DNA of 55,974 nucleotides from Bacteroidia bacterium. Its GTDB lineage: Bacteria > Bacteroidota > Bacteroidia > M30B66. The stretch lies in contig JAIBAI010000014.1 in assembly GCA_019695235.1 (NCBI GenBank), positions 1-55,974 on the forward strand, read 5' to 3'. Positions within the stretch are counted from its first letter, which is position 1. Each line of letters begins with the position of its first letter. Position numbers and translations under genes: made by a program. This document shows positions 5,066 to 7,849 of the stretch, in pieces. The notes under the pieces are model-generated. The model was not told the origin of the DNA. It did no database searches and saw only the letters and a list, made by a program, of their open reading frames with translations.

Positions 5066-6427
5066 TTATTTTTCTGTTAAGGCTGAAATCCCATCCGGCA
5101 TAATTTTATGTTTTGTGCGCAACAGTGGCACAATCAATAAAACAAAGCCTATTGTTAAGCAAGTGCCTGCCGCAAAGAACACGTAGAAATATGGTCGAAG
5201 TGTGTTAATCATTGCCCCGTAAGGTAAAGAAGGCTCGTTAAACTGCCAGTATGATTTAGCAATACCGGCAAGGAGCAGAGATATAAAGAACACAGCAAGG
5301 CTTATATTGGTAGTTAAAAACGCAAACTTAAAATTAGGTTTTATGCTCACAGTTGTATCCCTTCCTCCAATGATCTCAAATGCGCAGGCCAGCAGCAGCA
5401 TTGTATTGATACCTATTGTAGTACCCATTGTATGTGCTACGATGATATGTGTACCATGCATGTATATATTAAGTGCCGGTACTGACATGGCGATGGCCAA
5501 TCCTAAGTTTACAAACACCCAGATATCGGCAGCATATAAAAACCAATAAGCATGAATATGTTGCTTCCTATTGTCGAACGTCAATGACTGGCGCCACAGA
5601 TAGATTATTCTTCCCAAAATAAACAGCTCAGTCATACTAACTGCATAGCCTATTATATGTGTATACTGGGCTGTTGGAAGGGTATAAATATGATGCCCCC
5701 AATTAAACATCAGGTTAAATAGACTCAAAAAGAACAGACCAAATGCCATATTTGAGCGACTATATTTCTGATTGCCAACGATTTTATCCATTAAATAAAT
5801 AGAGCTACCATACACCAGCATGTTCCATGCGCCTACCATTGAGCCATAAGATTTCCACTGAATGGTCATGTCTTGAACCAGGCGATTACGAATACCCGGA
5901 ATTACCCATAAGTTAGATTCGCAATAGGTGAAAAGCAGGAATATCACTCCCGTTGCCCACATCCATAGGTACACCGGCTTGTCTTTCAGGGTTTTGTTAT
6001 TGGAAAAAAATAAACTTAAAAACAAAACCCATCCCAATATTATTGGGATAGAGAAAACCGGTTGAAATTCCCAATATTCCCGGCCTCCAAATATTCCAAA
6101 ACAATAGGAAATAATAATAGCGATAAATGAAAATGAAAATAAATAGAATTGAATTTTCTGGATTCGGATTGATTTTAATGAAAATTGATTAATCTCTTGC
6201 AAGAACGTAAGTACTGCACCCATTGCAGTCATTAATATCCAAAAGACCGCTGACGATACGTGTAAAGGCCGCAATTTCTCAAAAGAAAAAATATCCTTTC
6301 CTGCCCCGGGTACGATGTACTGAATTGCTGCGAGCAAACCAAATAATAAGGCACTCAGCAAAAACAATAAGCCAACCCGAATAAACAAAGCAGATTGGTG
6401 AAAACTATTGTGCTGAAATGGTGCCAT
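5066..6427 (-). CDS. NorB-like heme-copper oxidase superfamily subunit I with non-canonical ligands
   Basis: A 453-aa, about 12-helix membrane protein resembling the catalytic subunit of cytochrome c-type nitric oxide reductase. Hallmarks: RPLHV with H56 (low-spin heme b ligand), NWGHHIYTLP with H245-H246 (two FeB ligands), E267 matching a conserved NorB Glu, and HGTHIIVAHTMG with H332 as the high-spin heme ligand. Odd points: the helix at about 187-217 that should bring the first FeB His and the active-site Glu has none (SYGSMVGAWN; Y194, V198 and N202 align with His207, Glu211 and Glu215 of the Pseudomonas enzyme). M334 also replaces the second low-spin heme His. The start at 6427 overlaps norC by 23 bp. 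A longer in-frame start at 6460 is less likely. NO reductase activity is therefore inference: it may belong to a divergent NOR clade or be a paralogue with another task. Confidence 0.8.
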   Translation of the reverse strand: MAPFQHNSFHQSALFIRVGLLFLLSALLFGLLAAIQYIVPGAGKDIFSFEKLRPLHVSSAVFWILMTAMGAVLTFLQEINQFSLKSIRIQKIQFYLFSFSFIAIIISYCFGIFGGREYWEFQPVFSIPIILGWVLFLSLFFSNNKTLKDKPVYLWMWATGVIFLLFTYCESNLWVIPGIRNRLVQDMTIQWKSYGSMVGAWNMLVYGSSIYLMDKIVGNQKYSRSNMAFGLFFLSLFNLMFNWGHHIYTLPTAQYTHIIGYAVSMTELFILGRIIYLWRQSLTFDNRKQHIHAYWFLYAADIWVFVNLGLAIAMSVPALNIYMHGTHIIVAHTMGTTIGINTMLLLACAFEIIGGRDTTVSIKPNFKFAFLTTNISLAVFFISLLLAGIAKSYWQFNEPSLPYGAMINTLRPYFYVFFAAGTCLTIGFVLLIVPLLRTKHKIMPDGISALTEK

Positions 6428-6809
6428 AAGGGTGTTGCGTAAATGTATTTGGGTCTGCAATGCCAGTACTGTTTGTATATTTCAGAAACGAGATAAGCGC
6501 CTGCATTTCTGATTCAGAAAGATGATAATTAGGCATCACCTGCGTGCCCGACTGTAAGAAAGCCTTGATGTAAGGCGCACCCTTATGACCATATACATTC
6601 GTAAGATCAGGGCCGAGGTGTCCGCCAAGACCATATAACTGATGACAGGCCACACAGTTCTTCTGCTGCCAGATAATTTTACCAGTTTGGGCAAGTTTAT
6701 CAGCCGGAAGTGCTTCTTTGTATTCTCTAAAATAAAGCACCGTAGTGTAAATTGCATAAAGAACAATTAATCCGATAAAAACCGACATTTTCCACTGGTA
6801 ATTACTCAT
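6405..6809 (-). CDS. norC: NorC-like membrane-anchored monoheme cytochrome c
   Basis: A 134-aa electron-entry subunit for the NorB-like protein. One N-terminal membrane helix (about 8-26) anchors a periplasmic cytochrome c domain. The heme c site CVACH is at 52-56, GLGGHLGPDLTNV is typical of NorC, and M92 in QVMPNYHLSE is the likely axial ligand. Start 6809 gives the standard short NorC N-terminus (MSNYQWKMSVF). An upstream in-frame ATG at 6839 would add ten residues and lie inside a palindrome. Gene order norC-norB with overlap is the classic arrangement. Two inverted repeats sit just upstream and point to regulated expression. Confidence 0.88.
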   Translation of the reverse strand: MSNYQWKMSVFIGLIVLYAIYTTVLYFREYKEALPADKLAQTGKIIWQQKNCVACHQLYGLGGHLGPDLTNVYGHKGAPYIKAFLQSGTQVMPNYHLSESEMQALISFLKYTNSTGIADPNTFTQHPYGTISAQ

Positions 6810-6820
6810 AGGGATAAAAA

Positions 6821-6843
6821 TATCATGAAATAAAACCATGATA
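6821..6843. promoter_or_regulatory. Inverted repeat directly upstream of norC
   Basis: TATCATG (6821-6827) and CATGATA (6837-6843) form a perfect 7-bp inverted repeat with a 9-bp spacer. It begins 12 nt before the norC ATG at 6809. It may be an operator or a hairpin in the norC leader. Confidence 0.45.
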
Positions 6844-7333: not shown

Positions 7334-7849
7334 ATGAAAAAATCACTTTTAACTTTTGCAGCAGTAGCAGTAATTTTTACCGCTTGTAACCAAGGTTCAA
7401 AACCAGCTGAAACCACACCAACAGACTCAACAGCTGCCACGGAAGCACCTGCAGACCAGCCAGCAGCAAGTGCTGACGGTGTAATCACGCTTAACGCCGG
7501 AGATGATATGAAATATGATCTTTCGGAGATTATCGTAAAAGAAGGTCAAACTATCAAATTAACCCTCAACCATACCGGTAAAATGGCTGTTACTGCAATG
7601 GGGCATAACTTTGTTTTGCTAAAAAGCGGTGTAGCATTAGACGAATTTGCTACTGCTGCAATTGGCGCCAAAGACAATGACTATATTCCAAAAGATAAAG
7701 CAAATGATGTAATTGCTCATACCAAAACTATTGGTGGTGGTGAGTCAGTTACTATTGAGTTTCCTGCACCTGCAAAAGGTTCTTATGAGTTTCTTTGCTC
7801 ATTCCCTGGTCACTCTGCAATGATGCGTGGTAATTTTATCGTACAATAA
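7334..7849 (+). CDS. Azurin-like blue copper (type 1) lipoprotein
   Basis: A 171-aa periplasmic electron carrier. The lipoprotein signal ends with IFTAC (C18), and a Pro/Thr/Ala-rich linker (about 19-50) precedes a cupredoxin domain. The copper ligands match azurin: MGHNFVL with G90 and H91, then C155, H160 and M164 in LCSFPGHSAMMRG, with the azurin spacing C-x4-H-x3-M. Azurins pass single electrons between cytochromes and reductases. Its position opposite norCB suggests, but does not prove, that it donates electrons to NorC or to a terminal oxidase. It has its own promoter box, a long leader with a hairpin, and a strong terminator, so it is probably monocistronic and well expressed. Confidence 0.92.
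   Translation: MKKSLLTFAAVAVIFTACNQGSKPAETTPTDSTAATEAPADQPAASADGVITLNAGDDMKYDLSEIIVKEGQTIKLTLNHTGKMAVTAMGHNFVLLKSGVALDEFATAAIGAKDNDYIPKDKANDVIAHTKTIGGGESVTIEFPAPAKGSYEFLCSFPGHSAMMRGNFIVQ

Follow-up and report, generated by a model that had tools for sequence, protein, structure and literature searches.

Can a subunit of nitric oxide reductase (NOR) that has lost part of its active-site ligands still be an enzyme? The question is raised by a gene at positions 5066-6427 of a 55,974-nucleotide stretch of DNA from a Bacteroidia bacterium (contig JAIBAI010000014.1; the whole stretch is hereafter the window). The original prediction, made from the letters alone, described its product as a NorB-like subunit without the first histidine of the non-heme metal site (FeB) and without the active-site glutamates. 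Its coordinates were correct, and the coding strand turned out to be the minus strand: the intact 453-residue frame, opening with ATG at 6427, lies only there, and the plus strand contains many stops. We call the protein NorB'. The gene directly upstream, which shares 23 bases with the beginning of NorB', encodes NorC', a single-helix cytochrome c. The CxxCH motif (residues 62-66) and Met102 of NorC' are invariant in 78 homologues, a NorC-like motif, G-x-G...P-[DE]-L, is present, and NorC' lies directly upstream of NorB' in 87 loci.

Among solved structures, the only significant sequence relatives of NorB' were the NorB subunits of R. denitrificans and Pseudomonas aeruginosa. Alignment with these two places Y194, V198 and N202 at H207, E211 and E215 without a gap in helix VI, as had been predicted, and no histidine occurs between H56 and H245, in agreement with the stretch of about residues 57-244 named earlier. 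H245/H246, E267 and H332 correspond to H258/H259, E280 and H347 and are retained, also as foreseen. The claim that the active-site glutamates are lost held for two of three, E211 and E215; the third, E280, is kept as E267 in all 88 family rows described below. NorB' thus has two of the three FeB histidines and one of the three glutamates of the cNOR active site. A second loss had been overlooked. The low-spin heme b ligand H349 of P. aeruginosa, the second histidine of the HxH motif in helix X, is replaced by Met334. The histidine sextet (two for heme b, one for heme b3, three for FeB or CuB) is the superfamily signature and a classifier filter (PMC3413370, PMC3084760). NorB' retains four of the six (H56, H332, H245 and H246); the position of H207 is Y, N or A and that of H349 is M throughout the family.

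Could a histidine from another helix fill the site, as the original prediction had considered? No conserved candidate was found across the family rows. The only other highly conserved histidines are 324 and 327, which lie 8 and 5 residues before H332 in helix X, and residue 324 is also His in cNOR. With the helix VI ligands gone, canonical ligation would be impossible and the non-heme metal would have to be ligated differently, as had been proposed. Tyr194 as the substitute ligand in every member was rejected, since this position varies among Y, N and A, and a family tree calculated with helix VI left out shows five or more changes between them. R53, E117, E120, S264 and E267 are invariant or nearly so and match P. 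aeruginosa R57, E135, E138, S277 and E280, which belong to the Ca site and the proposed proton routes (PMC3431322). These retained counterparts suggest that the two hemes are still present, with the Ca site between them (roles: PMC3431322, PMC13087809).

A scan of genome contigs yielded 202 related stretches, from which 80 loci were kept. All came from records named as Bacteroidota lineages, except L041 (uncultured bacterium) and L087 (labelled Competibacteraceae). The NorC'B' neighbourhood of L087, titled Candidatus Competibacteraceae, is Bacteroidota-like, and this record is probably mislabelled or a mixed bin. In a Bacteroidota sample, NorB' matches fell into two groups, at 44% identity or more and at 25% or less, with none between; the lower group includes canonical cNOR with the motif VVHLWVEGVWE. 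Residues were counted in 88 family rows, some of them near-duplicates (e.g. L007/L054 and L090-L092). Position 194 is Y in 70 rows, N in 16, A in 1 and H in none; position 198 is V in 86 and S in 1; position 202 is N in 87; and position 334 is M in 87/87. No family member has the HxH motif in helix X. H56, H245, H246, H324 and H332 are each present in 87/87. The best-conserved nine-residue segment of NorB' is M240-Y248, followed by the segments FGGREYWEF and HTMGTTIGI.

Because the same substitutions occur family-wide, the residue changes are not due to chance or error. A dead pocket would be expected to drift first; since the stretch around the remaining FeB histidines is the most conserved of all, the pocket is remodelled rather than decaying. 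The suggestion that the protein belongs to a divergent family was therefore borne out, the altered residues being shared by the whole family. On this sequence evidence, NorB' is a conserved family of putative enzymes with an altered pocket, and neither a sequencing error nor a dead gene.

An AlphaFold model of NorB' from the family alignment (predicted local distance difference test, pLDDT, 82; predicted template modelling score, pTM, 0.87) has the 12-helix subunit I fold of the heme-copper oxidoreductase superfamily. Fold matches were about equal for cNOR and cbb3 subunit I (4xyd_A, Z 39.8; 3o0r_B, Z 38.9; 3mk7_D, Z 39.8). In the tree, the NorB' family forms one clade (100/99) outside cNOR+qNOR (100/100), not a clade with the usual three histidines; it may join either these or cbb3 (90/65, long branches). 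The pair resembles cNOR in the norC-norB gene order, the heme-c NorC, the 12-helix NorB of the same fold, and the equivalents of the heme b and b3 histidines, two FeB histidines, E280, E135, E138 and R57. In contrast to cNOR, it lacks the third FeB histidine, E211 and E215, it has Met at the position of the second heme b ligand, it is 22-25% identical to Bacteroidota cNOR, and no NorQ or NorD was recognised among its neighbours in the examined loci. The quinol-type enzyme qNOR (NorZ) is likewise a relative on the NOR side and often a divergent neighbour in NorC'B' loci, but it keeps the full histidine sextet and five glutamates (PMC13087809), and NorB' lacks its fused N-terminal domain. CcoN of the cbb3 oxidases (C family) shares the fold, with Z about 40, and gives a weak NCBIfam ccoN match of 37.8 bits (cut-off 583), but NorB' has neither CcoO/CcoP partners nor the full sextet.

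The original prediction had also proposed that the protein may be one of the divergent NOR clades known from genome surveys. This was not supported. The eNOR, sNOR, gNOR, nNOR and bNOR families are reported to be B-family relatives (PMC11388526) and resemble NorB' as divergent heme-copper proteins with altered active-site residues; eNOR, sNOR and gNOR have a cupredoxin subunit (PMC8756737), whereas the NorB' partner is a cytochrome c. The best sequence matches of NorB' are cNOR and ccoN, and it lies near cNOR, qNOR and cbb3 in a tree made without sequences of these five families. A literature search, which did not extend to Murali et al. 2024, found no description of a family without the heme b histidine.

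What, then, might the complex do? We tentatively favour, at somewhat less than an even chance, a membrane NorC-NorB complex with NO turnover at a site of two histidines and one glutamate. NorC'-NorB' would be a two-subunit membrane heme enzyme on the cNOR plan with a remodelled active site. Electrons would enter from the periplasm through the NorC' heme c (His66/Met102), as suggested by the retention of NorC', and pass to the low-spin heme b. The ligands of this heme would be His56 and probably Met334 in place of a His/His pair, which may give it a higher potential. From there the electrons would reach heme b3, whose proximal ligand would be His332. In the distal pocket, His245, His246 and Glu267 probably still hold a non-heme metal. 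A helical-wheel projection indicates that the facing side of helix VI offers only Q190, Y/N/A194, V198 and N202, and the 2-His/1-carboxylate set would thus be the simplest surviving metal site. The complex would most likely consume NO in bacteria for which N2O reduction by clade II NosZ is the main relevant form of respiration. The analysis shows an intact gene pair, residue changes shared by the family, a pocket of extreme conservation, the fold, a clade of its own and a link to NosZ and to genes of NO/N-oxide metabolism; from these we infer the cofactor set, the metal at the site, the His/Met heme b and NO as the substrate.

This reading is favoured by the fold shared with cNOR and cbb3 subunit I, the NorC-type partner with invariant CxxCH and Met, the invariance of H245, H246 and E267, the MFNWGHHIY stretch as the best-conserved part of the protein, and the matched residues of the P. 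aeruginosa Ca site and proton routes. It is also favoured by the neighbouring genes for Rrf2, qNOR, RIC, hemerythrin and Crp, and by the window's own genome, which has NirK and NosZ and in which neither cNOR nor qNOR was found; this genome also has RIC and aa3- and cbb3-type oxidases. Other facts weigh against NO turnover. Among the NirK-positive carriers, 13 of 22 also have a normal NOR, so that a simple replacement is not seen, and roughly half of all carriers possess no NirK and no other NOR, which leaves the need for NO turnover not obvious. These carriers form a wider set of 56 handles, corresponding to 54 distinct genomes (G383/G421 and G403/G433 are identical), and the carrier counts ignore relatedness. 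NirK occurs in 22/56 carriers versus 25/120 NosZ-positive non-carriers, and another NOR in 20/56 versus 17/120. Since carriers are no poorer in other NORs than NosZ-positive non-carriers, NorC'B' as a functional replacement of cNOR or qNOR is unsupported. NirS matches were found in 0/56 carriers, with a control that also gave no signal.

NosZ is linked to the pair more often than NirK or another NOR is. In the sample of 395 Bacteroidota (8 carriers and 387 others), clade II NosZ was present in 8/8 carriers versus 120/387 others (Fisher p about 1e-4). In the wider set it exceeded the cut-off in 50/56 handles (48 of 54 distinct genomes), with one further split gene. In L129/L074 (one genome) the pair comes first in a nos operon, NorC'-NorB'-cytochrome c-NosZ-X-NosD-NosF-NosY, and in L080 it comes last in one, NosZ-X-NosD-NosF-NosY-NorC'-NorB', in each case all on one strand; in G367 the distance to a full nos cluster is about 11 kb. 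NosF-labelled matches in L037, L066, L081 and L103 were left out of the nos counts, as they may be other ABC (ATP-binding cassette) ATPases. The nos cluster of the window's own genome, cytochrome c-NosZ-X-NosD-NosF-NosY (G000 C7 30000-46000, L127), is on a different contig from NorC'B' and is accompanied by a truncated hemoglobin and by Crp and Rrf2 regulators.

The co-occurrence with NosZ and the operons of L129/L074 and L080 would agree with the main rival explanation, in which NorB' has given up NO catalysis and acts as an electron conduit, a membrane cytochrome b/c that is fed by quinol or a periplasmic carrier and hands electrons on to the nos cytochrome c and to NosZ. Met334 would then raise the heme b potential for electron transfer, and the loss of an FeB histidine, two glutamates and a heme b histidine would fit lost NOR chemistry. 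A distal pocket, however, would be superfluous in a pure conduit, yet it is the most conserved part of the protein. In addition, 120 of the 128 NosZ-positive Bacteroidota in the sample lack NorC'B', a nos cytochrome c is already present, and cNOR-type subunits normally accept electrons rather than donate them. The conduit accounts for the nosZ link better than NO turnover does and for the pocket conservation worse, and we consider it rather unlikely.

A membrane heme sensor or scavenger, which would bind NO (or O2) and so protect NosZ and iron proteins but would not catalyse N-N coupling, seems improbable. The kept heme b3 ligand and altered FeB site would suit such a role, as would the neighbouring Rrf2-type regulators, RIC, hemerythrin and truncated hemoglobin; but no signalling domain is present, and the electron-entry subunit NorC', which a passive binder would not need, is always kept.

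Chemistry like that of NO dismutases (NODs), 2 NO -> N2 + O2, is very improbable. Putative NODs are related to qNOR and carry Asn in place of one FeB histidine and Gln in place of one glutamate (PMC3413370), and NorB' shows the same kind of change, with an FeB histidine replaced (by N in 16/87) and catalytic glutamate lost. However, the NOD architecture is of the qNOR type, with 14 helices and no heme c, and five of the six histidines are preserved (PMC3413370), whereas NorB' has lost two, is a separate 453-residue protein with an electron-donating heme-c subunit, and falls in its own clade outside cNOR+qNOR (in a tree without NOD sequences). Position 194 also switches repeatedly among its three residues, and the tie to NosZ indicates N2O as the relevant gas rather than N2 and O2. 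A decaying NOR paralogue or an assembly or sequencing error, which the loss of residues essential in cNOR might have suggested, is refuted by the related stretches with intact frames, the zero entropy around GHH and the strict NorC'-NorB' pairing.

NorC'B' would test the minimum FeB ligand set needed for NOR-type chemistry. A recent denitrification census excluded sequences without ligand-binding domains; in the same census Bacteroidota were the largest group of nosZ 'terminators', and some had nir and nosZ without nor (PMC12569097). In Bacteroidota that consume the greenhouse gas N2O, a conserved NosZ-linked NorCB-like complex would either fill in the absent step of NO handling or give electrons a new way to N2O reductase.

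Table. Positions of the gene pair and of the NorB' segments around the active site in the window
Feature	Position	Strand	Remarks
NorB' (NorB-like subunit I)	5066..6427	-	453 aa; COX1 family Pfam 2.2e-26; best Protein Data Bank (PDB) sequence matches are cNOR NorB
NorC' (NorC-like membrane-anchored monoheme cytochrome c)	6405..6839	-	144 aa; CxxCH, Met102, NorC-like motif
Helix VI segment, residues 186-198, DMTIQWKSYGSMV	5834..5872	-	Q190, W191, K192 and G195 invariant; 194 is Y/N/A
Helix VII segment, residues 240-248, MFNWGHHIY	5684..5710	-	Zero entropy in 59 sequences; both retained FeB His
Helix X segment, residues 322-337, YMHGTHIIVAHTMGTT	5417..5464	-	H332, the heme b3 ligand, retained; M334 at the position of the heme b ligand

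Around the pair, in 87 loci, the neighbours were an Rrf2-family regulator (40/87), a 6-pyruvoyl-tetrahydropterin-synthase-like gene (30), qNOR (15), the RIC di-iron repair protein (13), and a COX1-like 432-residue protein with a DUF1858/DUF2249 gene (9), along with hemerythrin, truncated hemoglobin, Crp-type regulators and nos genes. The synthase-like (QueD-like) gene lies downstream of NorB' on the same strand in its 30 loci, about a third (e.g. L064:7404-7868). An FNR/DNR box (TTGA-N6-TCAA) upstream of NorC' was rejected as a family feature (3/78 versus about 1 expected). In the window, an azurin gene (7334-7849, plus strand) is divergent from NorC'B'; it was rejected as a conserved partner, being near the pair in just 2/87 other loci.

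The 432-residue protein is a second remote COX1-like protein (Pfam COX1, 20 bits; HTM/HMM-ALG motif), found at L133:7475-8770 in the window's own genome and at L068:9098-10399. In the own genome and nine family loci it is grouped with RIC, the DUF1858/DUF2249 protein, a DUF59-like protein and an Rrf2 regulator. A 415-residue membrane protein with His-rich helix motifs (L127:1749-2993, own genome) had no NCBIfam match, and its homologue in L068 had no Pfam match. Its neighbours are the nos cluster and a Crp-type regulator, and homologues occur in seven family loci.
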